From Spiribacter salilacus (GTDB lineage Bacteria; Pseudomonadota; Gammaproteobacteria; Nitrococcales; Nitrococcaceae): a stretch of 64,000 bases of DNA. Location: NCBI RefSeq assembly GCF_009649225.1, contig NZ_WJPP01000003.1:124001-188000 (forward strand), in the 5' to 3' direction. Position numbers and translations under genes: made by a program. Each line of letters starts with the position of its first letter. Position 1 is the stretch's first letter. This document shows positions 4,202 to 51,286 of the stretch, one piece after another. The notes beneath the pieces are model-generated. The model was not told the DNA's origin, did no database searches, and saw only the letters and a program-made list of their open reading frames with translations.

Positions 4202-6140
4202 TCTCATTTGGCATCGGTAGCCACAAGGTGAACGCGCTGCCGCTGCCTGGGTGACTAGCTACCGTTACCTCACCACCGTGTGCTTGCATAATTTGACGAG
4301 TAAAGTACAAACCGATGCCCAAGCCACGGCTACTGGTGTTTTCTGAAGCGCGATAATGCTTATCAAAAATCTTCATCTGTTCGGCTTCAGGAATACCGGG
4401 GCCCGTATCCGTCACCTCAATACCCACTCTGTCATGATCGCGCACCGTGCGAACCTGAATAACTGCAGATTCCGGAGAATATTTAGCGGCATTATCGATT
4501 AAGTTGTACAAGGCCGTCCCCAGCAATACTTTATCGGCGGTTACTGTCAGCTCGTCTGCCCAACACTCAATGGGTTGCTTGATATGCATCTGCTCTGGCG
4601 CAAGCATTTCGGGCAGCCATACCGATAAGTCAATTGACTGAAGCGCAAGATTTGCCTGTCCATCCTGAAGCCGGTCGCTTTGCAGCCACTGCTCAAAGAG
4701 ATGCTGCAGCCGAACTGCCGCCCGCTCGATCATCTTAAGGCGCTGAGTCGGATCTTTATCGCGCCTCTGACTCATCTGGCCCAGCTGGGCTTGATTCACG
4801 ATAATCGCCAACGGATTACGAAACTCGTGGGCGATTAACGCACCAAATTCCACGTAGCGATCGAATATGGCTCGCTCACGCGTTAGTGCGGATTCAATCT
4901 CTGCGGTTCGCTCTTTTACCGTTTCTTCTAGCCGCTGCTCAGAGCCGCGTAACACCTCAACCAATTCAGTCTGCGCAAGTAAAGCACGATCCTGCGCCAA
5001 TTCTCGCGCCCGTCGCTCTGCATTAATTCGATCGGCTAGCGCAAAAGATAGCAGTAGCATATCCAGTAAAGAACCCACTTGTAGCAAGTTGGACGTTAGC
5101 GCATTGGTGGGAATCAAATCGAAATTGCGTGCCGCTTGAATAGAAACCGCCGCTAACAATACGGTCCATGCCAGCAGCAAAAAGCGTGCCCCTAGATGCC
5201 CACGCCAGTAACTCAAAACACTCACACCAATTAAAATGGGGCCGGTTATCACGCCAAGACCGCTCAGCATCCCAACGCCAATCCGCACGGGCACATCAAA
5301 GAGCGGGAAAACGGCAATAAGCCCAAAGGTGACGGTTAATGCCAACAACAGCCAATCAATGCGTGGCATTTCACGCGGGGTATCTAAAAAATCCCTTAAA
5401 AACCAAACCGCAAAAACCGCCGCCAACGAGTAAAAGGTGTTGGTTCCTATCGTTTCTGGCCAGCCCAGTGGTGCAAGCGCGTAAGCGGCAAAGCCGTTCA
5501 TTAAGAACATCGCTGAGCCGGTAAAAAACAAAAATCCACAATAAAGCAGATACTTACGATCTTTTAGAGAAACGAATAATAAGAAGTTATAAAACAGCAA
5601 AGCCAACGCGGCGCCATAGTAAGCCGCAATCCAAAGGTAGCTATGCTGCGTATGGCTTGCAAAGGCCTCAGTTGTCCACAGCCGAAGCGGTACGGTCAGA
5701 GATCCATCAGAGGCAACGCGTAAATAGAAAACCTCGGGTGTGCCTTGGGTTAAATTCACCGGAAAAACTAAGTGTCGATGGGGCCAAGGGCGCTCACCGG
5801 CCGGCTGATGCTTACCCGTTTTCACCACCTGTCCATCTGGGTAATACAAAGCCACATCGGTTAATGCATAGAAGGCTACTTCGATTAGATAAGTGGTGGG
5901 GGCGGGGTCAGCACCCTCTAAGGTAAAACGCAGCCAGTACGCGGAGTCAGTCAAGCCAAAGTTAATCGAACCGTCTTCAGCATACGGTGTAAAGGCGCCT
6001 GCTTGATCTGCCTGTCGAACCGCTTCAATCGGCATTTCCGCGCTTGGATCTTCCAAGTAAGCAACCTGGCTGTCCAAAGGCGTCCCTGCCAATACAATCC
6101 ACGGCCAAAGGCAAATGATTAAAAAAACCCAACGTACCAT
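4173..6140 (-). CDS. membrane sensor histidine kinase with 7TMR-DISM sensor
   Basis: A 655-residue kinase. An N-terminal signal peptide (about 1-19) is followed by a periplasmic beta-rich domain (about 25-165) resembling 7TMR-DISMED2, with the characteristic YWLRFTL motif. Seven hydrophobic segments follow (about 175-385), then a short coiled coil, HisKA with phospho-acceptor H438 in the H-box (LIAHEFRNPLA), and a HATPase domain with N-box (NLIDNAAKYS), G1 box (DTGPGIP) and GLGIGL. DISM sensors are thought to bind carbohydrates or other small ligands outside the membrane, and the ligand here is unknown. The gene overlaps the 3' end of the response regulator and diverges from arsH, leaving only a short shared promoter region. 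Confidence 0.9.
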   Translation of the reverse strand: MVRWVFLIICLWPWIVLAGTPLDSQVAYLEDPSAEMPIEAVRQADQAGAFTPYAEDGSINFGLTDSAYWLRFTLEGADPAPTTYLIEVAFYALTDVALYYPDGQVVKTGKHQPAGERPWPHRHLVFPVNLTQGTPEVFYLRVASDGSLTVPLRLWTTEAFASHTQHSYLWIAAYYGAALALLFYNFLLFVSLKDRKYLLYCGFLFFTGSAMFLMNGFAAYALAPLGWPETIGTNTFYSLAAVFAVWFLRDFLDTPREMPRIDWLLLALTVTFGLIAVFPLFDVPVRIGVGMLSGLGVITGPILIGVSVLSYWRGHLGARFLLLAWTVLLAAVSIQAARNFDLIPTNALTSNLLQVGSLLDMLLLSFALADRINAERRARELAQDRALLAQTELVEVLRGSEQRLEETVKERTAEIESALTRERAIFDRYVEFGALIAHEFRNPLAIIVNQAQLGQMSQRRDKDPTQRLKMIERAAVRLQHLFEQWLQSDRLQDGQANLALQSIDLSVWLPEMLAPEQMHIKQPIECWADELTVTADKVLLGTALYNLIDNAAKYSPESAVIQVRTVRDHDRVGIEVTDTGPGIPEAEQMKIFDKHYRASENTSSRGLGIGLYFTRQIMQAHGGEVTVASHPGSGSAFTLWLPMPNETTQPTPDRL

Positions 6141-6167
6141 AGTTGTAATTGTGACAGGACGGGCTGA

Positions 6168-6899
6168 ATGCAGCCAAAAGATTTATCGTTCGTTATGTTT
6201 TATGCTATTCCGATGAACGATACGCTGCCACTTCTTGATACAACACAATTATCGCCAATGCCAGCCGCTGAGCCGGCGAAGATACTGCTGCTTTATGGCT
6301 CGCTGCGTGAGCGATCTTACAGTCGGCTGGCGGCAGAAGAAGCTGCCCGCATTCTGCGGTATCTCGGGGCGACAACGCGCCTGTATGATCCCACCGGACT
6401 GCCGCTGCCCGATGCTGCTGATGAAACACATCCAAAGGTGGCTGAGCTGCGCGACTCAGCAACTTGGTGCGATGGGTTTGTTTGGTCCTCCCCCGAGCGT
6501 CATGGCGCCATGACGGGCATCATGAAAGCCCAAATCGACTGGATACCGCTCAATATGGGGGGTGTCAGACCCACGCAGGGAAAAACTCTGGCGGTTATGC
6601 AGGTTTGCGGCGGCTCACAGAGTTTTAATGCGGTGAACCAACTGCGCATTCTAGGCCGCTGGATGCGGCTAATTACTATTCCTAATCAGTCCTCCGTGCC
6701 CAAAGCCTACCTTGAGTTTGATGAGGCTGGTCGCATGAAACCTTCGCCGTATTACCAGCGTATTGTGGATGTCATGGAAGAGCTCATGAAATTCACGCTT
6801 TTAACTCGCGACATTCGCGATGATCTCGTCAACCGCTACTCCGAGCGTATTGAAACCGCCGCTGAGGTGTCTGCAAGGGTCAACCAACGCTCGATTTAG
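6168..6899 (+). CDS. arsH: ArsH-type NADPH:FMN oxidoreductase (organoarsenical resistance)
   Basis: Flavodoxin-fold flavoprotein of the ArsH family. Visible hallmarks are the phosphate-binding loop [10 protein letters not shown], the [19 protein letters not shown] block, and the [14 protein letters not shown] and [20 protein letters not shown] motifs specific to ArsH rather than general NADPH-FMN reductases. Characterised ArsH proteins oxidise trivalent methylarsenicals or reduce other substrates (azo dyes, chromate, quinones). No arsR, arsB or arsC lies nearby, so a purely arsenic role is uncertain. Start: the ATG at 6168 has a weak AGGA upstream. The ATG at 6213 gives a 228-residue protein closer to usual family length but has no ribosome site. 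An inverted repeat (ATCGTTC 6185-6191, GAACGAT 6215-6221) spans this second start and could be an operator. Confidence 0.88.
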
Positions 6900-10825: not shown

Positions 10826-11577
10826 GCAACGTTCAACCGCTTAAGGCGGAGTCAATTCACTTAAGCTATGGCACCCTTCAGGTTCTGAAGGGTGTCTCTT
10901 TAACGGTCAATGCTTCTGAAGGGGTAGTGCTGCTCGGGGCCAACGGCTGCGGCAAATCCTCTTTAATGCGTGTCCTTAATGGACTCGAACGCCCTCAACA
11001 AGGCTCTGTTGAGGTTTTCGGTAAGCCAGTCACCGGCGCGCGAGGCAGCGGTCTTCGTGCCATTCGTCGGCAAATGGGATACGTCTTTCAGCAGTTCAAT
11101 CTCGTCCCCCAATTAAGTGCTTTTCAGAATGTGCTTTTGGGTCTACTAGGCCAAAGGCCGTTTGGGCTGATCGGTTGCATGAGCCCCTTGGCCAGTGCGG
11201 AAGACCGAGAGCGCGCCATGGCCTGCCTTGAGCGTGTTGGCATGTCTGACCGGGCCATGCATCGGCCTGCTGAACTCTCGGGCGGGCAGCAACAGCGTGT
11301 GGCCATCGCGCGAATGCTAATGCAATCGCCCACCATCGTTATTGCGGACGAACCCGTTGCCAGCCTAGACCCGCGCGCCGGGCGCCAAGTGCTAGAGCTT
11401 TTATGGGAAATCGTCAGAGAGCGACAGCTATCCATGCTTTGCACACTGCACCAAGTCGAGCTTGCGCGAGAGTTTGCTGATCGCATCGTTGGCATCAAGG
11501 CCGGTGCGACTGCACTTGATGCTCCCGCTGAAACTATTGAACTATCTGCCATTAATGCCCTTTATGAAACCGCATAA
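10822..11577 (+). CDS. PhnC-type ABC transporter ATP-binding protein
   Basis: A 251-residue ATPase subunit. Walker A is GANGCGKSSL (about residue 39), the Q-loop is in GYVFQQFNLV, the signature is LSGGQQQRVA, Walker B is IVIADEPVASLDP, and the switch His is in CTLHQVELA. The FQQFNLVPQLSAFQNVLLG stretch is typical of PhnC. It sits on the cytoplasmic face and powers uptake through the PhnE-like permease. It overlaps the binding-protein gene by four bases (ATGA) and the permease gene by 14 bases, so the three are translationally coupled. Confidence 0.87.
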   Translation: MSNVQPLKAESIHLSYGTLQVLKGVSLTVNASEGVVLLGANGCGKSSLMRVLNGLERPQQGSVEVFGKPVTGARGSGLRAIRRQMGYVFQQFNLVPQLSAFQNVLLGLLGQRPFGLIGCMSPLASAEDRERAMACLERVGMSDRAMHRPAELSGGQQQRVAIARMLMQSPTIVIADEPVASLDPRAGRQVLELLWEIVRERQLSMLCTLHQVELAREFADRIVGIKAGATALDAPAETIELSAINALYETA

Positions 11578-12391
11578 CACGACAAACCCCGCTATGCCGC
11601 CGCGCTTTCGTCGGCCCTCCGTTGTTACTTGGGTCATCGCGATTAGCTTTGCAGCGTTTTTTATCCAGGGACTGATCGCGGCCGATGTAACTTTAGATCG
11701 TCTCGTCCGCGGTGCCAGCAACATCGTGCGCTTTCTGGGACAGGCATTTCCTCCCGATTTCTCGCGTCATGAATCGGTGGCCTGGGCAATGCTCGAAACG
11801 CTCAATATCGCGGTGGTCGGTGTCACCTTTGGGTGTCTGTTATCTGTACCACTAGCGCTTTTGGCAGCGCGCAATACGGCGCCCAACGCCATTGTGCGCA
11901 CGTTAGCGAGATTTGTGATCTCCGTTGCCCGTACTATCCCTGATCTCATTTGGGCGCTGATATTCGTGGTAACGGTTGGCCTAGGCCCACTGGCCGGTAT
12001 TCTAGCGATCATTATGGATACGATTGGCTTTGCCGCTCGTTTTTACTCAGAACGATTTGAGGAAGTGGGTAAAGGACCCAGCGAGGCGCTGACGGCGACG
12101 GGTGCAGGGCGACTCTCGGTCATCTTCGGCGCCATCATTCCAGAGAGCTTTGCCTCGATGACGGCCACATCGCTGTTTAGCGTAGAAAAGGCGATTCGCT
12201 CTGCCGTTACGTTAGGGCTTGTCGGCGCCGGTGGTATTGGTGTGGAGTTGTCTACCTCCATGCGCCTGTTCCGCTACGATCAGGCCGCTGCCATCATCCT
12301 ACTCATTTTGGTCGCTGTTATCGGTTTTGAGCAGCTCTCCTCCGCCATTCGTAAACGGATTATTAATGGAGAGGGCGTCCCTCAAGGCTGA
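11564..12391 (+). CDS. PhnE-type ABC transporter permease
   Basis: A 275-residue membrane permease with about six transmembrane segments. The binding-protein-dependent transport EAA-like loop is visible in EEVGKGPSEALTATGAGRLSVIFGAIIPE, and the PhnE-typical ARTIPDLIWALIFV precedes it. The start at ATG 11564 lies inside the end of phnC. ATG 11594 is an alternative that would remove ten polar residues. It completes the PhnD-C-E importer, followed by 45 bases before the P-type ATPase. The start of the second hydrophobic region contains one copy of the GGACAGGCAT motif (11738-11747) described in the findings. Confidence 0.85.
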   Translation: MKPHNTTNPAMPPRFRRPSVVTWVIAISFAAFFIQGLIAADVTLDRLVRGASNIVRFLGQAFPPDFSRHESVAWAMLETLNIAVVGVTFGCLLSVPLALLAARNTAPNAIVRTLARFVISVARTIPDLIWALIFVVTVGLGPLAGILAIIMDTIGFAARFYSERFEEVGKGPSEALTATGAGRLSVIFGAIIPESFASMTATSLFSVEKAIRSAVTLGLVGAGGIGVELSTSMRLFRYDQAAAIILLILVAVIGFEQLSSAIRKRIINGEGVPQG

Positions 12392-12405: not shown

Positions 12406-12438
12406 ATCCTGTCAATGTTGCAGTGCAATCAACAGGAT
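12406..12438. promoter_or_regulatory. nested inverted repeat over the ATPase start codon
   Basis: Outer arms ATCCTGT (12406-12412) and ACAGGAT (12432-12438) are perfect complements. Between them TTGCA (12418-12422) and TGCAA (12424-12428) form a second dyad around one G. The right outer arm includes the first two bases of the ATPase ATG (12437) and the only purine-rich stretch that could serve as its ribosome site. It could be a DNA operator or an mRNA hairpin masking translation initiation. No protein is known to bind it. Confidence 0.4.
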
Positions 12439-15055
12439 GTTTGCTGTGGAAAAAGACACTGATCGGGTTCAATGGCATGCGCACTCGGCCGAAAAAGCCA
12501 TTGAGCATCTTGATACCCGTCACGACGGCCTCACGCATGACGAGGCCGCTGACCGCCTAAAACAATACGGACGCAATGTTGCCGCTGCGCCAGCCCAACG
12601 CGGTTGGCTAGCTCGTCTAGCAGCGCAATTTCACAACATACTGATTTATGTCCTGATTGGCGCAGCGCTGGTCACCGCCGCGCTCGGTCATTGGATCGAC
12701 ACCGCCGTTATCGCGCTCGTCGTCATCATTAATGCCCTTATTGGCTTTATTCAGGAAGGCAAGGCCGAAAGTGCAATGGACGCCATCCGCAGCATGCTTG
12801 CGCCGGAGGCGATGGTTCGTCGCAATGGTCAGCGCGAAACGATTAGCGCCACCGAAGTTGTCCCTGGCGATATTCTGATTTTAGAACCTGGTGGGCGCAT
12901 CAGTGCAGACGTGCGCATTGCAACAGCCCGCGGCCTTTCCATTGACGAATCAGCGCTCACCGGAGAATCTGTGCCCGTTGAAAAGACCGGCGCGCAGGTG
13001 GATTCTGAGGCGGCGCTAGGGGACAGGCATGGAATGGCCTACGCAGGCACGCTTGTCGCCACAGGTGAAGGCACAGGCATAGTGGTTGCCACTGCCGATC
13101 GAACTGAACTTGGCCAAGTCACAGAAATGCTCGCAAGCGTTGAGAACGTGACCACCCCATTACTCCGGCGACTCAATCGTTTAGGCAAACAACTCTCCGT
13201 CATTATTTTGGCCGTTAGTGCCATCACCGCAGTGGCCGGCGTGGTGTTGCACGGGTTCTCGGCGGTAGAGATGTTTATGGCAGCGGTTGGTCTTGCCGTG
13301 GCAGCTATTCCCGAGGGTCTGCCAGCCATTATGACCATCACGCTAGCGCTTGGGGTGCAGCGCCTAGCACGTCGCAATGCCATTATTCGCCGCCTGCCCG
13401 CTGTTGAAACGCTGGGCTCGATTACCGTGATTTGCTCCGATAAAACCGGCACTCTGACGCGTAATGAGATGACTGTCCAAGAAGTGGCCATCGCCAATGG
13501 CTCTGAGCAACGCTTGGGCGAGGCGGTCAGTCTTTGCAGCGATGCCACTGTGAGCGTGAACAAAGATGACTCACTGAAAATCAGTGGCGACCCGATGGAA
13601 GCCGCTTTATTGGTTTATGCGCAAACCCTTGGTTTAGAACCGAATGCACTAAGACAAGCCCATCCGCGCTTGGAGGGTATTCCGTTTGACTCTACCCACC
13701 GCTACATGGCAAGCCTGCATGACATTAATGGTGAGCATCGATTAGTTGTTAAAGGTGCGCCAGAGGCGGTGGTTCCACGATGCCAAGGCATCGATGAGGA
13801 CGAGTGGCATAGAAAAGCAGAAGCCATGGCCGAGCGGGGGCTGCGATTATTAGCTGTGGCCGAGCGTATCGTCTCGCACGATGATTTTAAAATGGACCTT
13901 GATCATCAACCCGAAGACCTGACCTTGCTCGGCCTTGTAGCGATCATTGACCCGCCCCGTGAAGAGGCCATTAAGGCCGTCGCTGCATGCCGTCGCGCCG
14001 GTATTCGCGTGAAGATGATCACTGGAGATCATGCCCACACCGCGGCAGCAATTGGGCAACAGTTGGGCTTGGAGGATACCGGGCGGGGCGTTACCGGCGC
14101 TGAACTAGACGCTCTCAGCGATGCCGATTTTTCTGCTAAAGCGGGACAGGCATCGGTATTTGCCCGCGTTTCTCCCGCCCATAAGTTACGTCTGGTTAAA
14201 GCACTGCAGGCAAATGGTGAAATCGTTGCCATGACTGGTGATGGCGTGAACGATGCGCCCGCCCTGAAGCGCGCCGATGTGGGTGTGGCGATGGGGCAGC
14301 AGGGGACTGATGCAGCGCGTGAGGCCTCAGAGGTTGTACTAGCTGATGACAACTTCGCCACGATTGCAGCAGCGATTCGTGAAGGACGTGTCATTTACGA
14401 CAATATCGTCAAATCGATACTGTTCATGCTGCCAACTAACGCCGCTCAGTCGTTAATACTGGTGGCCGCGGTATTTATTGGACTGACGTTACCCATCACC
14501 CCGCCACAAATCTTGTGGGTCAACATGATCACCGCCGTCACATTGGCCCTGGCTTTGGCCTTTGAACCGGCAGAAGAAGGAGTTATGGGGCGTGCACCAC
14601 GGGCAGCCGATGGGCCTTTAATTCCTAAGGGGATGGGATCTCGACTAATCCTTGTCGCTTGCACCATGGTAATCGGCACGATGGCCATTTTTTTGTGGGA
14701 GCGTTCACAAGGCGCCGAGCTAGCCGAAGCAAGGACATTGGCAGTTAACACGCTGGTTTTGTTTGAGGTGTGGTATTTGTTCTCAGCGCGACGACTGCAC
14801 CAGAGCTCATTCAATCTATCGGGAGTTTTGGGGAATCGCTACGTGCCGATGGCGGGAGTTTTCATTATTTTGGCGCAAATCGCATTTACGTATGCACCCC
14901 CGATGCAGTTTTTGTTTGACACCCACTCATTGGGTGTCCGCGAATGGATCCTTGCCATTTTAGTGAGCCTGCCCGTCATCGCAGTTGCCGAAGGGCATAA
15001 ATGGTGGCAAAGAAAAAGGCTGCCCATGCCCAAATCAGGCAATGAGCAGCCTTAA
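12437..15055 (+). CDS. P2-type cation-transporting ATPase, ion specificity unclear
   Basis: An 872-residue P-type pump. Order: N-terminal cation-ATPase domain ([23 protein letters not shown]), M1-M2, actuator domain with LTGES, M3-M4 with AIPEGLPA (about 292), phosphorylation site DKTGTLT with D335, nucleotide-binding domain, hinge [15 protein letters not shown] (about 600), and M5-M10. It resembles bacterial Ca2+/Na+-type P2 pumps. However, the residues that bind Ca2+ in SERCA are not kept. The M5 Glu position is Q671 (NAAQ) and the M6 Asp is Ala (WVNMITAV, about 694-701), so a canonical Ca2+ pump is unlikely, and Na+, H+, K+ or Mg2+ are possible. It overlaps the nested inverted repeat at its start and carries the dmdA-like terminator at its 3' end. 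Confidence 0.88.
15009..15053 (-). terminator. rho-independent terminator for the DmdA-like gene
   Basis: Read on the minus strand, AAGGCTGC (15053-15046) and GCAGCCTT (15023-15016) form an 8-bp stem, with a nested GCC/GGC pair in the loop, followed directly by a T-rich run (TTTCTTT). It lies 15-60 bases beyond the stop of the demethylase gene and entirely inside the last codons and stop codon of the convergent ATPase gene. Confidence 0.6.
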
Positions 15056-18189: not shown

Positions 18190-18939
18190 TTAGCTATGCA
18201 GGTAATGACCACCATTAACGTGAATCGTCTCGCCGGTAATGTAACCCGCCGCGGGGCTAGCGAGAAATACCACCACATCAGCCACCTCGGCGGCAGTCCC
18301 CAAACGCTGCAATGGCATTGCCGCCACCATCGCGTTGCGCTTATCAGCATCCAGCGCCTGAATCATGCGGGTATCAATTAAACCGGGCGACACCGCATTC
18401 ACCCGCGTTTTCGGCGCCAACTCCTGAGCCAAGCTGCGCGTTAGCGTGAGTACGCCGCCTTTAGCAGCCGCATAGGGGGTGTGGCTCACACTGCCCCGAT
18501 GCCCCGCCACCGAGGCAATATTCACCACCGCACTGCCTTCACTCAAGTAGGGCCGCAGCGCCTGCACCGTATAAAACGTGCCATCCAAATTCACGGCCAT
18601 ACTGCGCCGCCATTCCTCGGGCCCAACCTCTTCAATCGCCAAGTCCTCATACAAACCGGCGGAGCAGACCACACAATCGATGCCTGTCCTTAAAGTGCCT
18701 GTCCTTAATGTGGCACAGGTTTTTGCCAAGGCTTCGGCATCAGCCATTGAGGCGACGTCGTGGCGCTGCGTGGCGAGTACGGAATGAGCTGGGAGGTCGG
18801 CGGCTAGCGTATCGAGCCGCGATAAATCAAGGTCGCTGAGTACAAGGCGATAGCCTGCGTTGGCTAGTCGCTCGGCAATAGCAATACCAATTTCTCCAGC
18901 AGCACCGGTGATCACGGCAGTTAAAGCGGCGTTTGGCAT
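18190..18939 (-). CDS. short-chain dehydrogenase/reductase (classical SDR)
   Basis: A 249-residue NAD(P)-dependent oxidoreductase. It has the nucleotide-binding TGAAGEIG motif near residue 11, CSAGLYED (NNAG-like), catalytic Ser in NIASVAG, YAAAK active-site pair, and SPGLIDT. An acidic residue after the second beta-strand (LSDLDL) suggests NAD(H) preference. The substrate is unknown, and 2,3-butanediol/acetoin, 3-hydroxyacids or sugars are all possible. The gene reads with the GntR regulator and diverges from the E1 gene. Residues RTGTLRTGI are encoded by a tandem 15-bp repeat (18680-18707) that looks inserted between strand and loop. Confidence 0.85.
   Translation of the reverse strand: MPNAALTAVITGAAGEIGIAIAERLANAGYRLVLSDLDLSRLDTLAADLPAHSVLATQRHDVASMADAEALAKTCATLRTGTLRTGIDCVVCSAGLYEDLAIEEVGPEEWRRSMAVNLDGTFYTVQALRPYLSEGSAVVNIASVAGHRGSVSHTPYAAAKGGVLTLTRSLAQELAPKTRVNAVSPGLIDTRMIQALDADKRNAMVAAMPLQRLGTAAEVADVVVFLASPAAGYITGETIHVNGGHYLHS
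18680..18707 (-). repeat. two tandem copies of 15-bp GGACAGGCAC repeat inside the SDR gene
   Basis: On the coding strand the unit AGGACAGGCA(C/T) followed by TTTA or C occurs twice with a 15-base period (decamers at 18704-18695 and 18689-18680). It is translated in the frame RTG, different from the GQA frame used by the same DNA motif in the E2 gene. Confidence 0.75.
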
Positions 18940-19051: not shown

Positions 19052-21247
19052 ATGCCAAGTAAGGAGAGACTTGAGGCGCTTGCGCCATGGTGTGTGCTTG
19101 AAAGCACAACCACTGATTGGACAGGCACAAACGCCAAGCATCTTGGCACGCTACTCACCAGCATGCAGATCATTCGTGCTTTTGAAGAGGCCGTGCTCGA
19201 ACTGGTTGGTAAAGGGCTTGTGCATGGACCCGCGCATTCAAGCATCGGGCAGGAAGGCGGCGCAGTGGGCTCCATTTTGGCTTTGCGGGCAAGCGACCAA
19301 ATTAACGGCTCCCATCGTGGCCATCATCACTTTTTAGGCAAAGCGCTACACTATTTAATGCCTGACGGCATGGATCCAGCCAACCCCATTAACCCAGACA
19401 TCCAAACCTTACTCACCCGAACGCTTGCGGAAATCATGGGCCTAGCGCAAGGATTTTGTCGCGGGCGCGGTGGCTCAATGCATCTGCGCTGGGATGAAGC
19501 TGGCGTATTAGGCACCAACGCAATTGTTGGTGGCGGCGTGCCCATGGCAGCCGGGGCGGCTTGGGCACATCGCCACGCAGGCACAGGAGACGTGGCGGTA
19601 ACCTATTTTGGCGACGGCGCCGCCAATATTGGCTCGGTCCTCGAGACAATGAACCTGGCTGCTGCCTGGAAGCTGCCATTGTGCTTTTTTATTGAAAACA
19701 ACCAATACGCCGTTTCAACCGAAATTAGCGAAGTGACTGCCGAGCCGCGACTCTCCTCCCGCGGCCAGGCCTTTGGCATTCCCGCTTGGAAAGTGGATGG
19801 CATGGACCCACTGGCCGTGAATTTGGCGATGGAAGAGGCCGTCGCAACCATGCGTCGCGGCGATGGCCCGACCATTGTTGAGGCAGATGTCTATCGCTTT
19901 TTCCATCAAAACGGCCCACTACCCGGCAGTGCCTTTGGCTACCGTACCCGTGAGGAAGAAGACGCATGGCGCGCGCGTGACCCCATTAACCGCGTCGCCC
20001 AACAAATGATCGACCAAGGCATGATCGATCAAACAGGCATAGAAACACTCAACACCGCCGCGCGTGATGCGATGCAAGAAGCCACTGAAGCGTTGGTTGA
20101 TAGCAGTGGTGAAAAACCCGCTATTCGTGAGCATCTATGGCCGTCCGCTGACTTTCGTGATGCCCATATTCGTGGAGATCTTACCGAGTTTGAGGGCGTG
20201 CGGTATGTGGAACAAGAGGACTACACCGGCAACTTAGAGAGTCGGCGCTTTGTCGATACAGTAGCCGAGGTTATGCATCGGCGTATGAGCCAAGATGACC
20301 GCATCGTGGTGATGGGCGAAGATGTGCATCGCCTCAAAGGCGGCACCAATGGGGCCACTCGTGGGCTATCTGAAGACTTCCCTGACCGCTGCCTAGGCAC
20401 ACCCATCAGCGAAAATGCATTTGCCGGACTTGGCGGTGGCATTGCAATGGATGGGCGCTATCGCCCCGTGGTCGAGTTTATGTACCCCGATTTTATGTGG
20501 GTAGCCGCTGATCAGGTGTTCAACCAAATCGCAAAGGCCCGACACATGTTTGGCGGCGATAGCGCAATGCCATTCGTGCTCCGTACCAAAGTAGCCATGG
20601 GCACCGGCTACGGCTCTCAACACTCCATGGACCCAGCCGGACTGTTCGCCACGTCCCCTGGCTGGCGCATTGTTGCCCCGAGTACACCTTATGACTACGT
20701 CGGGCTAATGAATAGCGCCCTGCAGTGCGAAGATCCCGTTTTGGTGATTGAGCATACCGACCTCTATAACGCGCGTTTCCCCTCACCCACCAACGATTTG
20801 GACTACTTCATCCCGCTGGGTAAAGCCAAAGTGGTTCGTAAGGGCAGTGCAGTGACGGTGATCAGCTATTTATCGATGGTTGAACGTTGCTGCACGGCGG
20901 CAGAGGCGCTTGGCGTTGATGCCGAGGTGATCGATATGCGCAGCCTCGATCGCGCTGGCATTGATTGGGACACCCTTGGCGAGAGCATTCAGCGCACCAA
21001 TAACGTACTGATTGTGGAACAGGGGCCGCTGGGTACCTCCTGGGGCGGATTTTTAAGCGACGAAATTCAGCGCCGGTTCTTTGATTGGTTAGATCAGCCA
21101 ATTCAGCGCGTGCTGGGTGGTGAGGCATCGCCTAGTATCTCGAAGGTCCTTGAGCGCGCTGCCTGTGCCGATGTGGAAGAAGTGGAAGAAGGCCTGCGCA
21201 ACGTCATGGCAGCGCAGGGCCGCCCCCTTCCCGCCAACGCGAACTAA
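19052..21247 (+). CDS. 2-oxoacid (or acetoin) dehydrogenase E1, fused alpha-beta subunits
   Basis: A 731-residue fusion. Residues ~35-330 are an E1-alpha module: GPAHSSIGQEGGAVG, GRGGSMHL, and the thiamine-diphosphate motif GDGAANIGSVLETMNL...ENNQYAVST. Residues ~390-725 are an E1-beta transketolase module: VVMGEDVHRLKGGTNGATRGL, TPISENAFAGLGGGIAMDGRYRP, and a C-terminal domain with VEQGPLGTSWGG. E1 decarboxylates a 2-oxoacid (or cleaves acetoin) and passes the acyl group to lipoyl-E2. In most bacteria alpha and beta are separate genes. The substrate may be pyruvate, a branched 2-oxoacid or acetoin. The SDR and lyase neighbours are compatible with several. Strong GCAGGAGGAGG ribosome site. 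Downstream E2 starts 14 bases after its stop. Confidence 0.88.
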   Translation: MPSKERLEALAPWCVLESTTTDWTGTNAKHLGTLLTSMQIIRAFEEAVLELVGKGLVHGPAHSSIGQEGGAVGSILALRASDQINGSHRGHHHFLGKALHYLMPDGMDPANPINPDIQTLLTRTLAEIMGLAQGFCRGRGGSMHLRWDEAGVLGTNAIVGGGVPMAAGAAWAHRHAGTGDVAVTYFGDGAANIGSVLETMNLAAAWKLPLCFFIENNQYAVSTEISEVTAEPRLSSRGQAFGIPAWKVDGMDPLAVNLAMEEAVATMRRGDGPTIVEADVYRFFHQNGPLPGSAFGYRTREEEDAWRARDPINRVAQQMIDQGMIDQTGIETLNTAARDAMQEATEALVDSSGEKPAIREHLWPSADFRDAHIRGDLTEFEGVRYVEQEDYTGNLESRRFVDTVAEVMHRRMSQDDRIVVMGEDVHRLKGGTNGATRGLSEDFPDRCLGTPISENAFAGLGGGIAMDGRYRPVVEFMYPDFMWVAADQVFNQIAKARHMFGGDSAMPFVLRTKVAMGTGYGSQHSMDPAGLFATSPGWRIVAPSTPYDYVGLMNSALQCEDPVLVIEHTDLYNARFPSPTNDLDYFIPLGKAKVVRKGSAVTVISYLSMVERCCTAAEALGVDAEVIDMRSLDRAGIDWDTLGESIQRTNNVLIVEQGPLGTSWGGFLSDEIQRRFFDWLDQPIQRVLGGEASPSISKVLERAACADVEEVEEGLRNVMAAQGRPLPANAN

Positions 21248-21260
21248 GGAGAACAACGCC

Positions 21261-22514
21261 GTGCCAATATCGATTGAAATGACGGCAGCCACCGCTGGCA
21301 TGGAAAGCGCCACGCTGGTTCGCTGGCTAAAAGCCGAGGGAGATTCCATCACCGAGGGCGACGTCATTGCCGAGGTTGAAACTGACAAGGCCATTATGGA
21401 GTTGACTGCCCCGGCGGGTGGCGTGCTCGGTCGCATCGATGTGCCCGACGGCACCGATGAAGTGACCGTCGGTCGTGTTATCGGTTGGCTACTCGCACCC
21501 GGCGAAGATGCCAGTGCCCTACCATCAACCACAGCCAATCCGCCTGCCGCCGCAGCCCCAGCCGAACCTGAGCCCAAGCCTGAGCCCACGCCAGCAGAAG
21601 CAGCAGCGGCTATGCCTGCAGCGCCCGCACCATCACCGGCTGCGTCAGCACCACAGCCTGCTTCAACATCACGGCCCTTTGCTAGTCCATTAGCCCGTCG
21701 CATTGCCAAAGAGCGCGGAATTGACCTGACCACCCTTACCGGCAGTGGCCCACGCGGCCGCGTTGTCCGTATCGATGTAGAGGATTTAGAAGGACAGGCA
21801 CATTTAGGACAGGCACTTCCAGGACAGGCACTTTTAGAACACTCTGGCATGCGCAAGACCATCGCGCGTCGTTTAACGGAATCAAAGCAGACGATTCCGC
21901 ATTTTTATCTCACACTGGATTGCGCCATGGAGGCGTTGCTCGAGGTTCGGAGCACACTGAATGCCCGCGGTGAAAAAGCAAAACAACCCTATCGACTGTC
22001 GGTCAATGATTTTTTAATTAAAGCAGTTGCAATCGCCTTGCAGGAGCAGCCCGCGGTAAACGTGTCCTGGCAGGAAACGGGGCTGCTGCAGTACACCCAC
22101 TCAGATATCAGCGTTGCGGTAGCAACCGAGGGCGGGCTCATCACGCCCGTTATCCGCAAGGCCGAAGAAAAAACGCTGGTCAACATGGCAGCCGAAGTTG
22201 CTGATCTGGCCAGCCGCGCGCGGGCGGGTCAATTGCCACCCAGTGCGTATCAAGGCGGTGGTTTCACCATCAGCAACCTGGGGATGTATGGCATTAAAGA
22301 ATTTTCCGCCATTATCAATCCACCGCAAGCCGCCATTTTGGCCGTGGGTGCGGTTGAGCAGCGCCCCGTTGTAAAAGAAGGCGAACTGGCCGTAGGTCAG
22401 CAGCTCACGCTAACGCTCTCAGCTGATCATCGCGCCATTGACGGCGCCGTTGCCGCTGAATTCTTAGCCTGCTTGCGCGACTTGCTTGAAAACCCACTCT
22501 CGGTGCTCGTTTAA
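21261..22514 (+). CDS. dihydrolipoamide acyltransferase E2 of the same complex
   Basis: A 417-residue E2. One N-terminal lipoyl domain has lipoylated K43 in ETDKAIMEL. An Ala/Pro-rich linker (~90-145) follows, then a peripheral-subunit-binding domain (FASPLARRIAKERGIDLTTL, ~150-172). The inner-core acyltransferase domain ends with catalytic LSADHRAIDG. Between the binding domain and the catalytic core lie three tandem pentapeptides, GQAHL GQALP GQALL (residues 178-192), encoded by a 15-bp DNA repeat found elsewhere in the window. The start is GTG 21261 with an AAGGAG ribosome site just after the E1 stop; earlier in-frame codons lie inside E1. It abuts E3 with no gap (TAA then ATG). Confidence 0.9.
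   Translation: MPISIEMTAATAGMESATLVRWLKAEGDSITEGDVIAEVETDKAIMELTAPAGGVLGRIDVPDGTDEVTVGRVIGWLLAPGEDASALPSTTANPPAAAAPAEPEPKPEPTPAEAAAAMPAAPAPSPAASAPQPASTSRPFASPLARRIAKERGIDLTTLTGSGPRGRVVRIDVEDLEGQAHLGQALPGQALLEHSGMRKTIARRLTESKQTIPHFYLTLDCAMEALLEVRSTLNARGEKAKQPYRLSVNDFLIKAVAIALQEQPAVNVSWQETGLLQYTHSDISVAVATEGGLITPVIRKAEEKTLVNMAAEVADLASRARAGQLPPSAYQGGGFTISNLGMYGIKEFSAIINPPQAAILAVGAVEQRPVVKEGELAVGQQLTLTLSADHRAIDGAVAAEFLACLRDLLENPLSVLV
21791..21835 (+). repeat. three tandem copies of 15-bp GGACAGGCAC repeat inside the E2 gene
   Basis: Units start at 21791, 21806 and 21821, each beginning AGGACAGGCAC and ending in four variable bases. They add fifteen residues to the flexible region after the subunit-binding domain, so an in-frame expansion here would be structurally tolerated. 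The unit uses the codons GGA and GCA. Confidence 0.85.
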
Positions 22515-23912
22515 ATGGCCGATTATCAAATCATCGTTATTGGTGCTGGCCCTGGCGGCTATGTGGCCGCCATTCGCGCCGCACAGTTGGGGGCGAGCTG
22601 CGCCGTCATCGAGGCCGCAGAGCCCGGCGGCGTTTGCTTGAATTGGGGCTGCATTCCCACCAAAACCCTACTGCATTCCGCGGATCTATTACGCCAGGCC
22701 AAGACGGCAGATGCCTTCGGCGTCATACTGGACACCCACCCAAAATTTGATTTGGAAAAAGCCGTTGCCCGCTCTCGGGCCGTGGCAGGGCAACTTAATC
22801 GGGGGGTGCGTGGGCTGTTGCGCAAACATGACATCCCACTGATTAGCGGTCATGCCTCACTGCTGGGCCAAGGCCGTATTAAGGTGAGCGAAACCGCGGG
22901 CGAACGCATCCTCAGTGCCGATGCCATTATTTTGGCAACCGGTGCCCGTCCCCGCGAGCTACCGGGTTTGAAACCTGATGGCGATCGCCTATGGACCGCG
23001 CGCGAAGCCATGACACCCACCGAACTACCCAAGCGTCTTGCGGTGATTGGCGGCGGCGCAATTGGCGTGGAATTTGCCAGCTTTTACGCCACCATCGGCA
23101 GCGATGTCACCGTCATAGAAATGGCGAACCAAATCCTGCCCACTGAAGATGCTGAAATTTCAAAACTGCTGACTGAACAGCTGAAAGCAGATGGCATTGC
23201 ATGCCACACCGGCACACGCGTAACAGCCTGCCAACCTAACGATGACCACGTTGAACTCATACTCACCGGGCCTAACGACGCGGCGACGACATTAAAAGTT
23301 GATCGCGCCATTCTGGCGGCTGGCATTACCGGCAATGTGGAATCACTAGGGCTTGAGAACACGGCCGTGACGGTCAAAGACGGACACATTGTGACGGATG
23401 AGTCCGCTGCCACTGCAGAGCCGGGCGTGTATGCGATTGGCGATGTGGCTGGTGCCCCCTGGCTTGCTCATAAAGCCAGCCATGAGGCCATTGCTTGCGT
23501 AGAACGTTTACTAGGGAATCCAGAAGCGCATCTTCCAAAGCCGGAACAAATTCCCTCCTGCACCTACTGCCATCCACAAGTAGCCAGCATTGGGTTAACT
23601 GAGCAGCGTGCGCTTGAGCGGGGCTACGAAATCCGAGTCGGCCGCTTCCCACTCATCGGCAATGGTAAGGCGCAAGCCTTGGGTGAAACCGAGGGTCTGG
23701 TGAAAACCATTTTTGATACGCACACCGGCGAGCTGCTGGGTGCCCACCTCATCGGGGCTCAGGTAACCGAACTCATCAGCACCTACGCAGTAGGACAGGC
23801 ACTTGAGACGACCGAGGCGGAATTGCTAGCAACGGTCTTTCCTCATCCCACGGTATCTGAGGCATTGCACGAGTCTGTGCTTGCCGCATGGGATCGCGGG
23901 CTGCACCTTTAA
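22515..23912 (+). CDS. lpdA: dihydrolipoamide dehydrogenase E3 (second copy)
   Basis: A 465-residue flavoprotein disulfide reductase that reoxidises dihydrolipoamide with NAD+. It has the FAD motif VIGAGPGGYVAAIRAAQLG at the N-terminus, redox disulfide in GGVCLNWGCIPTKTL, NAD-binding IGGGAIGVEFASFYATIG, FAD ribityl contact VYAIGDVAG, and C-terminal FPHPTVSEALHE with the catalytic His-Glu. It starts immediately after the E2 stop codon, forming an E1-E2-E3 operon. A second lpd copy (37038-38459) serves the sucAB complex. A single GGACAGGCAC decamer (23793-23802) occurs in the interface domain, encoding GQAL. Confidence 0.92.
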   Translation: MADYQIIVIGAGPGGYVAAIRAAQLGASCAVIEAAEPGGVCLNWGCIPTKTLLHSADLLRQAKTADAFGVILDTHPKFDLEKAVARSRAVAGQLNRGVRGLLRKHDIPLISGHASLLGQGRIKVSETAGERILSADAIILATGARPRELPGLKPDGDRLWTAREAMTPTELPKRLAVIGGGAIGVEFASFYATIGSDVTVIEMANQILPTEDAEISKLLTEQLKADGIACHTGTRVTACQPNDDHVELILTGPNDAATTLKVDRAILAAGITGNVESLGLENTAVTVKDGHIVTDESAATAEPGVYAIGDVAGAPWLAHKASHEAIACVERLLGNPEAHLPKPEQIPSCTYCHPQVASIGLTEQRALERGYEIRVGRFPLIGNGKAQALGETEGLVKTIFDTHTGELLGAHLIGAQVTELISTYAVGQALETTEAELLATVFPHPTVSEALHESVLAAWDRGLHL

Positions 23913-25335: not shown

Positions 25336-26286
25336 ATGGCTAAATATCGCTACGATCGGCTCCGTCAATTACGCGCATTCTGCTTTGCCGCAGAGCTTGG
25401 CAGCATTTCTCGTGCGGCCGAACGGCTCGAACTCACACAACCCTCGGTATCGCTGCAAATTCAAAGCCTTGAGCGCGAACTAGGCGTGATTCTTTTTGAA
25501 CGCAGAGGCCCGAGAATTCGATTGACTAATGATGGACAGGCACTCCATGCCATGGCGCAAACCATGGTGGCAAACATTGATGATTTACCAACTCAATTTG
25601 CCAAAGGCAGCCAGTCTTTAGACGGCGGTTATTTGGATATTGGCGCGGGACAGTCATCTACACTGTATCTTCTCCCGCCGCTGCTCGAGCGTTTTATGGC
25701 GCAGCATCCCAACGTGCAGGTTCGCCTGCACAACCTATCGGTTGGCGACATGCTAGAAGCCCTGCGCACCGACCGGATGGATTTTGCGGTAGGGGCTGTT
25801 CTTGATTTACCTAATGAGCTTCGCTATCAAGCCATTTACTCGTATGGCTTATCGCTTATTACTCCTCCAGATCATCCGTTAGCCGAGCGTGATGTGATTA
25901 GCACCCGCGATTTAGCGAATCAGGACTACATCATTCCGCCTCGAGACATGACAACGTGGCGCCTAATTAACTTAGTGTTTGAGCAACAGGCCATTCAATA
26001 CCGCGTCAAACTAGAGGTTGGCAGCTGGGAAGCCGTTAAGCGCTACGTGAGCTTAGGCTTTGGCATTGCGATTGTGAGTAACGTTTGCTTGGCAGAGGCG
26101 CCGGCTAATCTTGCCATTCGATCATTGCCTGATATTTTTCCAAAGCGAACCTATGGTGCTATTTCGCGGCGCGGCCGGGCACTCTCGCCGCCCGCACGGC
26201 GCTTTTTGGAAATGAGCGGCATGGACATGCCGACTGAACTAACGGCTCGTCAGTCTGAGCTCAATGCGACGATTACGCGCGAATGA
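25336..26286 (+). CDS. LysR-family transcriptional regulator, probably of aceA
   Basis: A 316-residue regulator. The N-terminal winged helix (about 6-65) includes FCFAAELGSISRAAERLELTQPSVSLQI. The two-lobed effector domain (about 95-300) has the signature GYLDIGAGQSSTLYLLPPLLERF and a GFGIAIVSN loop. The CysB/Cbl-like overall pattern does not fix the effector. The divergent arrangement with isocitrate lyase across two dyads suggests it controls the glyoxylate bypass in response to a small carboxylate or thioester (inference). Its last 48 bases overlap the convergent OmpA/MotB-like gene. One GGACAGGCAC decamer (25534-25543) encodes GQAL next to the DNA-binding domain. Confidence 0.85.
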   Translation: MAKYRYDRLRQLRAFCFAAELGSISRAAERLELTQPSVSLQIQSLERELGVILFERRGPRIRLTNDGQALHAMAQTMVANIDDLPTQFAKGSQSLDGGYLDIGAGQSSTLYLLPPLLERFMAQHPNVQVRLHNLSVGDMLEALRTDRMDFAVGAVLDLPNELRYQAIYSYGLSLITPPDHPLAERDVISTRDLANQDYIIPPRDMTTWRLINLVFEQQAIQYRVKLEVGSWEAVKRYVSLGFGIAIVSNVCLAEAPANLAIRSLPDIFPKRTYGAISRRGRALSPPARRFLEMSGMDMPTELTARQSELNATITRE

Positions 26287-32533: not shown

Positions 32534-33089
32534 GCTGGACATCCACAATCACGCGAACCTCATGGCCAACCGCGGAGGGGTCTTCCCAGTCCCCTTCGCC
32601 AATGCCGAAGGTGGTGCGGTCGATCACCAGTTCGCCTTGCATGTGTGCCTGTCCCGTATCCGTGCTTTTCCAAGCAAACGGCAGAACAACCGGTTCACTA
32701 TGCCCCTTAATGGTCAACGTGCCCTCAGCGGCATAGGGGTAATCAGCGTTTTCTGTGGCTTGGCGAATCTCGGTGGTTTCAAATCGGGCCTCAGTAAACT
32801 CATCCATCGCAAACCAAGCCTGCTTCGGTAACTCTCGATCGCGCTGACTACTGCCGGTTTGAATGCTCGTCACATCAATTCGAACATCAAAGTGACTGTC
32901 CTCTAACTGCTCCGCAGAAAATCGCATCTCGGCTGAGAATTGTTCAAACTCACCCTCAAACTGCCCTCCTTGCTGGGTGGCTTCAAACGCCAAACGACTT
33001 TCAGCTAGATCAATATCCCAAGGGTCGGCCGCCAACGCAGGCATTGCAATCAAAGCCGTTAAAAAGGACAGGCACAGAAAAAAACGCAT
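32517..33089 (-). CDS. yceI: YceI family periplasmic protein
   Basis: A 190-residue protein with a signal peptide (about 1-20, ending AMPALA) and a YceI lipocalin-like domain. It begins WDIDLAESRLAFEATQQGGQFEGEFEQFSAEMRF and contains the TLTIKGHSEPVVLPF block. YceI proteins bind polyisoprenoid or similar lipids in the periplasm. The ATG at 33089 has AAGGAGACATA upstream and shares one base with the stop of the cytochrome b561 gene, the same order as E. coli yceJ-yceI. GGACAGGCAC decamers occur at 32645-32654 (coding strand) and at 33066-33075 (reverse orientation, inside the signal peptide). Confidence 0.92.
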   Translation of the reverse strand: MRFFLCLSFLTALIAMPALAADPWDIDLAESRLAFEATQQGGQFEGEFEQFSAEMRFSAEQLEDSHFDVRIDVTSIQTGSSQRDRELPKQAWFAMDEFTEARFETTEIRQATENADYPYAAEGTLTIKGHSEPVVLPFAWKSTDTGQAHMQGELVIDRTTFGIGEGDWEDPSAVGHEVRVIVDVQLSAAG

Positions 33090-48387: not shown

Positions 48388-48391
48388 AGCG

Positions 48392-49897: not shown

Positions 49898-49909
49898 GCG
49901 CTGATCCTT

Positions 49910-51286
49910 CTAGAAAAACGTCACGCCCACAGCAAAGAGCTTTTCAACATCAGCAAGGCGCGTTTTATCCACTAAAAATAGGATCACATGATCCTCAGGC
50001 TCAATGACCGTGTCATGATGCGCCATTATGACCTGCTCGTCGCGTACGATCGCCCCAATTGTGGTGCCACGCGGTAAGCGAATGTCTTCCACACGCTTAC
50101 CCACCACATCAGAACTGCCCGCGTCACCATGCGCAATGGCTTCGATTGCCTCTGCCGCACCGCGACGCAAACTGTGGACTGTGGCCACATCGCCGCGCCG
50201 AATATGCGCCAGCAAACTCCCAATCGTTGCCTGCTGAGGCGAAATGGCCACATCAATATCATCACTGGATTGAATAAGATCAACGTAAGCCGCGCGGTTA
50301 ATGAGCGCCATAACCGTTCTTGCGCCGCGCCGCTTGGCGAGCATGGCAGACAAAATATTGGCCTCATCATCGTTGGTAAGCGCGCAGAAGACGTCAGTAT
50401 TTTCAATATTTTCTTCGAGCAACAGATCTTCATCGGCCGCATCACCATGCAGTACGATCGTCTTTTTAAGCTCATCGGCTATTGCCCGACAACGCTGGGC
50501 ATTATGCTCAATAATCTTGACTTGGTAGGACGCCTCCAGCGATTGCGCAAGACGGGTCCCGATGTTTCCGCCGCCGGCTAACATAATGCGCTTCACAGGC
50601 TTATCGAGGCGCCTAAGCTCGCTCATGACCGCGCGAATATTTTTACGCGCAGCCACAAAGAAGACCTCATCACCTGCCTCAACAACGGTATCGCCCTCAG
50701 GAATAATCGCCTTACCGCGGCGATAAATCGCCGCCACCCGTGTATCAACCCCCGGCACGTGTTCCCGCAGGGTTTTGAGTGCCTGTCCTACTAGTGGGCC
50801 TCCATAATAAGCGCGCACGCCCACAAGCCGGACCTTGCCATCGGCAAAGTCCATCACTTGCAGTGCACCGGGGTGCTCAATGAGGCGCCTCACATACTGG
50901 GTAACGAGCTGCTCGGGGGAGATGAGCACATCAATGGGCAAAGCATCAGGTGCAAAAATTTGTGGATGCGATAAATATTCGATAGCGCGAACTCGCGCAA
51001 TTTTAGTGGGCGTGTGAAACAAGGTAGCCGCCACTTGGCAGGCCACCATATTGGCCTCATCCGAATCGGTCACCGCGATAATCATATCGGCATCATCCGC
51101 GCCTGCCCTTGCCAGCACTTCAGGATAGGTGCCATTGCCAGTCACGGTGCGCAGATCCAAGCGATCTTGTAGCCCCTGTAAAACCTGGGCGCTTGTGTCC
51201 ACCACGGTAATGTCGTTGGCCTCGGTTGCCAGCGTTGCAGCAACGGTACCCCCCACCTGACCTGCACCGAGTATGACGATCTTCAT
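49910..51286 (-). CDS. trkA: Trk potassium system regulatory subunit TrkA
   Basis: A 458-residue peripheral protein with two RCK modules: NAD-binding [16 protein letters not shown] at residue 4 and [16 protein letters not shown] near 236, each followed by a TrkA-C domain. It gates TrkH. It overlaps ntrX by four bases (ATGA), so potassium uptake and the NtrYX genes share an operon. One GTGCCTGTCC copy (50779-50788) encodes GQAL on the coding strand. Confidence 0.96.

Follow-up and report, generated by a model that had tools for sequence, protein, structure and literature searches.

On sequence grounds, a chromosomal HUH transposase of RAYT type (TnpA_Y1, subclass 2.3-like), encoded at C12:88336-89376 in Spiribacter salilacus, seems to have the decamer GGACAGGCAC as its cognate site motif. 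That such motifs form RAYT-linked clouds of cognate sites under constraint is held with high confidence, a judgement that does not extend to the drive step considered below. The locality of the copies, the presence of one main motif per RAYT, the terminal position of the motif in mobile relatives, and constraint on the sites support this directly. Quite likely, it is the RAYT itself that recognises the motif, and it would probably do so in single-stranded DNA.

In the window, the whole 64,000-nt stretch analysed (C12:124001-188000), GGACAGGCAC is the most frequent 10-mer. Ten exact copies are present, versus a mean of 0.10 and a maximum of 1 in 100 dinucleotide shuffles. The sequence-only reading had located all ten, and its expectation of about 0.1 agrees with the shuffle mean. 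The four copies of GGACAGGCAT and the single nonamer that it had added were found among the 15 nonamers of the window (shuffle mean 0.61, maximum 3), which are listed in Table 1. Its host genes and its statement that all three reading frames are used also hold, as does the copy antisense to yceI at position 33066. The triplet in the E2 gene is placed between the E3-binding domain and the catalytic domain.

Table 1. Motif copies in the window (positions are those of the window)
Motif	Position	Strand	Host gene	Remark
GGACAGGCA (nonamer)	4653..4661	-	7TMR-DISM histidine kinase ORF (4173-6140, -)	sense
GGACAGGCAT	11738..11747	+	ABC-transporter permease ORF (11462-12391)	sense, frame GQA
GGACAGGCAT	13021..13030	+	P-type cation ATPase (12437-15055)	frame GDRH
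GGACAGGCAT	14144..14153	+	P-type cation ATPase (12437-15055)	frame GQA
GGACAGGCAT	18680..18689	-	SDR (18190-18939, -)	15 bp to next copy
GGACAGGCAC	18695..18704	-	SDR (18190-18939, -)	
GGACAGGCAC	19119..19128	+	E1 dehydrogenase (19052-21247)	
GGACAGGCAC	21792..21801	+	E2 (21117-22514)	copy 1/3, 15-bp spacing
GGACAGGCAC	21807..21816	+	E2 (21117-22514)	copy 2/3
GGACAGGCAC	21822..21831	+	E2 (21117-22514)	copy 3/3
GGACAGGCAC	23793..23802	+	E3 dihydrolipoamide dehydrogenase (22515-23912)	
GGACAGGCAC	25534..25543	+	LysR regulator (25336-26286)	
GGACAGGCAC	32645..32654	-	yceI (32517-33206, -)	sense
GGACAGGCAC	33066..33075	+	yceI (32517-33206, -)	antisense
GGACAGGCAC	50779..50788	-	trkA (49910-51286, -)	last copy of the window

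A whole-genome count and a search for a RAYT gene, both proposed in the sequence-only reading, placed these copies in a larger feature. The genome (G000) contains 62 copies of GGACAGGCAC versus 0 of the reversed control; with 10 versus 0.10 in the window, this rules out chance or composition. The excess is local, not genome-wide: 46 of the 62 copies are in one 143-kb stretch, and the window covers only a flank of the whole feature. Density is highest at about 80-100 kb on contig C12, outside the window. The group at 18.6-25.6 kb, which had been described as the cluster, does exist, but is only a secondary peak. The RAYT1 gene (346 aa) was found within the 143-kb stretch, at the density peak and about 35 kb to the left of the window.

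The same arrangement is observed at other RAYT genes. RAYT2 of S. salilacus, at C12:279253, has its own cloud of AGACACCCA; 60 of the 78 copies of AGACACCCAC fall in C12:259-320 kb, and 36 of these lie no more than 25 kb from RAYT2. Copies within 25 kb of the RAYT account for 31/42 (G001), 29/39 (G002), 32/37 (G012), and 24/26 (G009) of the genome-wide copies, with log10 p values of locality from -36 to -45. A motif cloud surrounds the RAYT in all 11 genus genomes with a strong RAYT match. Among the genus genomes examined, those with a strong match have a single one, except G000 with its two. The matches occupy two orthologous loci, A in some species and B in others; G000 uses both. The motif differs between species at one locus, four motifs being found across five species at the orthologous locus B. 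The motifs of G005 and G006 are GGACAGACA and GGACACCCA, respectively, and their clouds are one-sided, spanning about -40 to +10 kb. G005 also carries a second, weak RAYT-like match (30% identity), around which no cloud of this kind is present within 12 kb. Three genus genomes are without a detected RAYT; one of them, G008, has 21 copies in an assembly that is 74% complete. Tandem copies occur at a spacing of 15-51 bp, and the sites nearest to the RAYT in this genus are not consistently inverted.

Other origins for the clouds were considered. A horizontally acquired island is unsupported, as syntenic orthologues of many cloud genes exist in the genus. A terminus, origin or segregation motif, an idea taken from the skew of C12, was dropped because the clouds accompany RAYTs at two different loci. 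A dif-like 28-mer from E. coli has no match with up to 9 mismatches on C12:1-320000, and no known RNA family reaches the gathering threshold in the densest 40 kb.

In the RAYT1 protein, H71, H73, Y183, N187, and P188 form the HUH and Y---NP motifs of the RAYT/TnpA_Y1 class 2 enzymes, and these residues are invariant in 22/22 aligned proteins. The majority motifs are NHYH and YVDLNP; those of RAYT1 are NHFH and YVELNP. The predicted model (pLDDT 83.6) has the Y1 transposase fold. Its top PDB match is 4er8, a RAYT bound to a REP hairpin (probability 1.00, E 1.1e-3, TM 0.63 by target), followed by ISDra2 and IS608 TnpA, none at E<=0.001. No sequence match to solved structures was found at E<=0.01. 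All 22 proteins match NF047646 (REP_Tyr_transpos) at E<=0.001, RAYT1 scoring 47.6 versus a cutoff of 80; its score for Pfam Y1_Tnp is 22.8 versus a cutoff of 23. NHYH, YVDLNP, a length of about 325 aa and the lack of REPs are features of TnpA_Y1 subclass 2.3; by motifs, length and the absence of GTRG hairpins at G000, the enzymes are subclass 2.3-like. According to the subclass description (Quentin 2018, PMC6006769), the median length is 325 aa, versus 346 aa here, and the NHYH-type HUH, the YVDLNP Y-motif and multiple copies in some genomes, as in Photobacterium here, are shared. REP-like sequences were reported there as not found in this subclass, unlike the terminal motif and clouds described here.

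Mobile relatives indicate where the motif belongs in an element. Photobacterium has several RAYT copies per genome, and GGACAGCCA begins exactly at -71 in 27 of 28 loci; the 28th is cut by a contig end (27/27 testable). In 401 of the 462 ordered pairs formed by the 22 copies, homology starts at -71 to -85, and an inverted right copy lies within 480 nt in 20/22. Mobile RAYT elements of Photobacterium thus have such a motif as their left end. In this respect they resemble TIRYTs (TIRtrons), whose Y1 enzyme genes lie between inverted repeats, in many cases with GGGGWSAS, and which have dispersed TIR families in addition to the flanking TIRs (Di Nocera 2013, PMC3733652). The available part of that paper gives no account of a site cloud in neighbouring genes, of constraint or of dialects. 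Among 73 gammaproteobacterial RAYT loci, RGACANNCA ranked above all 300 permuted families in 32 and in the top 5% in 47. No RGACANNCA word reached at least 3 copies in 26 loci, which may have other motifs or be cloudless.

The cloud sites of locus A, with GGACAGGCA as the motif, are under constraint at the DNA level. In five species at 73-87% identity, four-fold degenerate sites in the motif were conserved in 45/47, 38/39, and 39/39 cases (96-100%), versus 54%, 63%, and 54% outside. The conserved block is confined to -3 and -1 to +9. Aligned G001 sites were identical in G013, the best pair, in 26/27 cases (control 10.7%), and in G009 in 13/19 (control 9.6%). The frozen four-fold positions, together with the copies in all frames, in antisense and in intergenic DNA, bear out the proposal of the sequence-only reading that the DNA and not a peptide is conserved.

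Between orthologues, nine of ten comparisons had 60-88% of sites aligned without a gap in or near the site, and the remaining one had 22%; insertion is therefore not the chief route in those nine. Gaps inside the site were seen in 3-44% versus 2-5% of controls. Some sites thus lie in insertions, and substitution is not the sole route. Among non-identical aligned sites in G001, G002, G012, and G013, whose pairs are non-independent, 27/35 differ by 1-2 substitutions and 8 are gapped. In four of seven clouds (G001, G002, G012, and G006), one-mismatch variants are as frequent as the Markov expectation, with neither depletion nor enrichment. Gap-free aligned G000 sites are shared with G001, G002, and G012 in only 2/29, 3/28, and 4/27 cases counted from G000, and in 2/9, 3/12, and 4/12 counted from the other genome (control 1-2%). 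Turnover is therefore high at larger distance.

In cloud G000a, 69 of 75 sites are in ORFs. Intergenic sites, by crude ORF calls, number 9/32 in G001, 12/34 in G002, and 11/34 in G005, and exceed the share of intergenic DNA in several clouds. By eye, the genes carrying sites have no common theme. The sites on C12 are 69 sense versus 13 antisense; a requirement for the transcription strand, suggested by this split, is ruled out by GGACACCCA, with a ratio of 21:19.

Several alternatives lead back to known systems. Insertion of REP/REPIN-type mobile palindromes around the RAYT is very unlikely, even though the RAYT lies inside the cloud. The REPtron, a RAYT/TnpA_REP with its REP or REPIN, has a HUH-Y1 enzyme that shares the fold (4er8 being the top match) and one cognate short DNA family for each enzyme. 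In three marine gammaproteobacteria and in Thauera, REPs were reported to build up locally near rayt genes (PMC2817692). However, the motif here, a linear word of 9-11 nt, lacks both a hairpin and a GTRG foot; it is mostly intragenic, mostly gap-free between orthologues and under DNA-level constraint. In six clouds, the sites had about the same degree of structure as shuffles, somewhat more in G006 and less in G005, and fell below random windows. GTRG-hairpin REPs numbered 0 within 1 kb of either G000 RAYT, and GTRG hairpins near seven other RAYTs were 0-2 (shuffles 0.2-0.6); GTRG-footed flanking hairpins of the REPtron kind were thus not found. The hairpin or REP model was rejected on the folding results and this absence. 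From the earlier suggestion of a REP/RAYT-type repeat, the RAYT-associated short motif survives, with the RAYT in the cloud and a terminal position in mobile relatives; the mobile palindrome does not, for lack of structure.

Uptake sequences (DUS/USS) are short motifs with dialects, found within genes and genome-wide. The motif here shares the first of these traits, being short, non-palindromic, intragenic, different between species and gained by substitution. An uptake signal is nevertheless hardly tenable: the copies form local clusters around one gene, 74-92% of them within 25 kb of it in four genomes, and two motifs occupy two places within one genome. A genome-wide uptake signal is excluded by this locality; the drive model favoured below includes a local variant. 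A codon or peptide artefact, such as a favoured GQA peptide, would account for the sense-strand and GQA-frame excess of GGACAGGCA (58 sense, 11 antisense). Its probability is practically nil; it is refuted by copies in all frames, in antisense and in intergenic DNA, by a strand bias that varies with the motif, by the frozen four-fold positions, by the zero of the reversed control and by the local distribution. The earlier suggestion of a protein-binding site fits, with the RAYT as the putative binder.

Two further explanations concern what maintains the sites. The RAYT might be a domesticated resident protein that binds or nicks single-stranded DNA, its beneficial sites, with roles in replication restart, local topology or recombination, being under ordinary purifying selection on the cell. 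The strong, sharply bounded conservation would agree with this, as would the low number of strong RAYT matches, one in a genome and two in G000, and their placement at two orthologous loci. The function would, however, have to follow the RAYT location (locus A or B, both in G000, several copies per Photobacterium genome), the motif changes between species at the same locus, and the genes with sites share no theme by eye; this explanation is rather unlikely. Transposases show cis preference, and the cis locality of the clouds resembles it. The enzyme might copy its motif onto similar nearby single-stranded sites, which would be made and repaired by it and not selected. Preferential REP formation near rayt genes was proposed in PMC2817692, and the tandem copies and the indel excess at sites suggest some local copying. 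Against such rewriting, which we consider unlikely, the predominance of 1-2 substitutions (27/35) is that expected from point gain and loss, and in 4/7 clouds one-mismatch sites show neither depletion nor excess.

The reading that we favour, tentatively, is a local transmission drive that would keep the sites near the RAYT gene. In mobile relatives, the motif type serves as the terminal sequence of the element. Here, around a RAYT at a fixed locus, dozens of copies have gathered within about 20-85 kb, mostly intragenic and mostly without indel, each kind tied to its own RAYT and kept by DNA-level constraint. Action of the RAYT in cis at motif sites might lead to exchange of motif-bearing DNA between cells, and motif alleles linked to the RAYT gene would spread along with it. 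More speculatively, immobile RAYT genes might be a local gene drive, in which a HUH nuclease works in cis on the 9-11 nt motif that belongs to it, so that the DNA around the gene is favoured in transmission in recombining populations. Motif-creating point mutations in neighbouring genes would then spread, partly overriding protein constraint, and a change of specificity would rewrite the whole cloud into a new dialect.

Among the papers listed in the literature searches, neither the motif nor intragenic site clouds are described, and no passage on locality was found in PMC8049555; part of this may be known from preprints, subscription papers or the additional files of PMC2817692. RAYTs are widespread, class 2 being reported in 25.5% of the species sampled (PMC6006769), and their function is unsettled; subclass 2.3, among the larger subclasses, was reported there as REP-less. 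A subclass 2.3-like RAYT now has a cognate motif, which marks the end of the element in mobile copies and forms a constrained, mostly intragenic cloud around fixed copies. This offers a defined substrate and natural enzyme-motif pairs for the study of specificity. The results suggest that surrounding genes have their sequence shaped by the enzyme: across tens of kilobases, the DNA preference of one enzyme may alter the proteins encoded by unrelated neighbouring genes.

The decamer GGACAGGCAC, which the sequence-only reading had picked out as over-represented, was indeed in excess in the window: 10 copies were present against 0.10 expected, and it ranked first by count among all 10-mers. The nonamer form, GGACAGGCA, occurred 15 times (0.61 expected). 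The genes hosting these copies were verified with Pfam. When the count was extended to the genome (2.235 Mb, 18 contigs), 62 copies of GGACAGGCAC were found, against none of the reversed control, and 46 of them (log10 p -41) fell in one region that accounts for 6.4% of the genome length. Lying at C12:124001-188000, the window holds the right flank of this cluster.

At the density peak, a rough selection of ORFs had left 3 kb unfilled. This gap contains mutM, whose domains were found by domain search, two short ORFs that by eye resemble ribosomal proteins L33 and L28, and a 346-aa ORF (RAYT1). The proposal that a REP-associated tyrosine transposase (RAYT) might accompany the motif was thereby borne out, as RAYT1 is RAYT-like and lies inside the cluster. 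It matched the REP-associated tyrosine transposase model with an E value of 1.5e-12 and 47.6 bits, under the curated cutoff of 80, and narrowly missed Pfam Y1_Tnp (22.8 vs 23). The PDB structure nearest to its AlphaFold model (pLDDT 83.6) was the RAYT-REP complex 4er8 (probability 1.00, E 1.1e-3; no match at E <= 0.001), followed by the ISDra2 and IS608 transposases. The HUH and Y..NP residues were unchanged across 22 aligned relatives, and the majority motifs of these, NHYH and YVDLNP, match the ones that the available text of PMC6006769 lists for TnpA_Y1 subclass 2.3.

Positions of RAYT genes and motif clusters (G000, S. salilacus; G038, a genome of another family)
Feature	Genome	Position	Content
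GGACAGGCAC cluster	G000	C12:31-175 kb	46 of 62 copies; density maximum at about 80-100 kb
RAYT1	G000	C12:88336-89376	346-aa ORF
E2 gene	G000	window 21792-21831	three copies at 15-bp spacing, adding GQA-type repeats to the stretch that separates the E3-binding domain from the catalytic domain
RAYT2	G000	C12:279253-280215	74 AGACACCCA within 45 kb
AGACACCCAC cluster	G000	C12:259-320 kb	60 of 78 genome-wide copies
Abrupt end of AGACACCCA cloud	G000	C12:313977-319758	16 AGACACCCAC in 6 kb, then zero on the remaining contig
Locus B	G000	C12 278-281 kb	motif by genome: AGACACCCA in G000, GGACAGGCA in G003 and G004, GGACAGACA in G005, GGACACCCA in G006
GGACAGGCAC cluster	G038	C1:321-352 kb	32 of 45 copies, surrounding the RAYT
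RAYT	G038	C1:326656-327645	
Tight arrays (L157-L159)	G038	C1:310001-370000	spacing about 18-50 bp

RAYT relatives were detected in 11 of the 14 genus genomes (the other three are 74-86% complete), and in all 11 the gene, with 46-100% identity to RAYT1, sits within a motif cluster. Among the 13 other genus genomes, nine carried 21-51 copies of GGACAGGCAC and four carried 0-5. GGACAGGCAC surrounds the RAYT in nine genomes (G000, G001, G002, G003, G012, G004, G009, G011, and G013), with some sites falling on other contigs where the assemblies of the last four are fragmented. In G005 and G006 this decamer is scarce, and the 60 kb around the RAYT hold 34 GGACAGACA and 48 GGACACCCA, respectively; a weak second RAYT-like match in G005 (30% identity) had no such cloud within 12 kb. 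S. salilacus itself thus has, on one contig, two enzymes with two motifs in two places.

By synteny, locus A, adjoining mutM and pcm, is shared by G000, G001, G002, and G012, and locus B by G000, G005, and G006; the RAYT flanks of G003 and G004 also match locus B. Six motif changes were counted on a tree of 29 RAYTs, against a mean of 15.4 after shuffling; none of 200 shuffles gave so few.

The motif has a terminal position in mobile relatives. In Photobacterium, GGACAGCCA starts exactly 71 nt 5' of the ORF in 27 of 28 loci, the 28th being cut by a contig end. When 22 copies were compared in 462 ordered pairs, the homology boundary was at -71 to -85 in 401, further out in 45, and further inward in 16; 20 of 22 loci also have an inverted motif copy within 480 nt past the ORF match. 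The fixed start, the homology boundary, and the inverted downstream copies show that, in Photobacterium, the motif forms the end of a mobile element. Several other RAYTs are preceded by two to four direct copies and followed by inverted ones; in the window's genus, an inverted pair around the RAYT was not regular. RAYT ORFs themselves are poor in the motif: across 25 motif-rich loci they have 0.08 sites per kb (2 in 24.4 kb), against 0.88 per kb in the 5-kb flanks. Just outside the right-end TGGCTGTCC of several Photobacterium elements (L058, L060, L081, L090, and L110), about 8 nt, a few nt like (G)TCC, and the same 8 nt again were seen by eye, with none seen on the left; this may be a remnant left by transposition.

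At many of 80 gammaproteobacterial RAYT loci, the most frequent local words have the form RGACANNCA. Of these loci, 73 were at least 8 kb long; RGACANNCA surpassed every one of 300 permuted families at 32 of them and ranked in the top 5% at 47. This is not an independent test, since the family was derived from the same loci and the Photobacterium entries are related to one another. No RGACANNCA word with three or more copies was found in 26 of the 73. Some such loci have other enriched words, GGACACCCC in L078 and AGGGTGTCC = GGACACCCT in L098, which are perhaps further dialects. Two genomes of another bacterial family, G036 and G038, carry 40 and 45 GGACAGGCAC, and the motif forms tight arrays in that family too; of the seven RAYT matches in G036, several are partial. 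RAYT genes also lie on contigs of MAGs titled Klebsiella pneumoniae (L086 and L119); that of L119 groups with an environmental gammaproteobacterium, so the title may be wrong, at least for L119.

Constraint was assessed for locus A with GGACAGGCA. Aligned sites of G001 were identical in 23 of 27 cases in G012 (79% identical; control 9-mers about 13%), 26 of 27 in G013 (76%; control 10.7%), and 13 of 19 in G009 (74%; control 9.6%). The conserved block comprises columns -3 and -1 to +9, at 0.89-1.00, against about 0.5-0.8 for most flanking columns. At four-fold degenerate third positions, identity was 45/47, 38/39, and 39/39 within the motif and 54%, 63%, and 54% outside (Fisher p 4e-7 to 5e-11). 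The constraint therefore acts on DNA, not on protein. The strand bias follows what the motif encodes: the sense to antisense ratio was 58:11 for GGACAGGCA and 21:19 for GGACACCCA. By crude ORF calls, the majority of sites are in genes, with intergenic sites over their share in several clouds (G001, 9/32; G002, 12/34; G005, 11/34). Preferred flanking bases vary from cloud to cloud, and predicted structure at the sites was about equal to that of shuffles.

Compared with more distant orthologues, 60-88% of the sites were gap-free in and near the motif in nine of ten comparisons; the tenth, for GGACAGACA of G005, gave 22%. Among gap-free sites, mean mismatch exceeded the control in seven of ten, so that the sites often replace former protein sequence. 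Gaps within sites amounted to 3-44%, against 2-5% in controls. Among 35 non-identical aligned comparisons in G001, G002, G012, and G013, 27 differed by one or two substitutions and eight by a gap. Together with the gap-free alignment, this indicates that sites probably arise mainly by point mutation and, as a second route, by local duplication or insertion, as copies also occur at 15-51 bp spacing.

According to the available text of PMC2817692, palindromic REPs accumulate locally, up to 200 kb, near rayt genes in three marine gammaproteobacteria and in Thauera. That of PMC3733652 reports TIRYTs carrying GGGGWSAS repeats, and that of PMC6006769 reports subclass 2.3 as lacking REP-like sequences. 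No description of linear motif clouds within coding DNA was found among the open-access journal papers examined.

We infer that the motif is recognised by the RAYT. As for how the sites persist, neutral decay of a repeat would produce a halo of variants. The 27 one-mismatch variants, pooled, were at Markov expectation in G001 (17 vs 17.8), G002 (22 vs 20.7), G012 (19 vs 16.7), and G006 (19 vs 15.7); they were in excess, chiefly at one position, in G000a and G000b (the two clouds of S. salilacus) and in G005. We tentatively place local transmission drive ahead of the other explanations. Maintenance as binding sites of benefit to the host seems rather unlikely, and rewriting of the sites by enzyme catalysis seems less likely still. 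Local transmission drive would account for the closeness of the sites to the RAYT gene and for a cloud accompanying the gene at either locus. It would also account for concerted motif changes and for protein sequence yielding to the motif.
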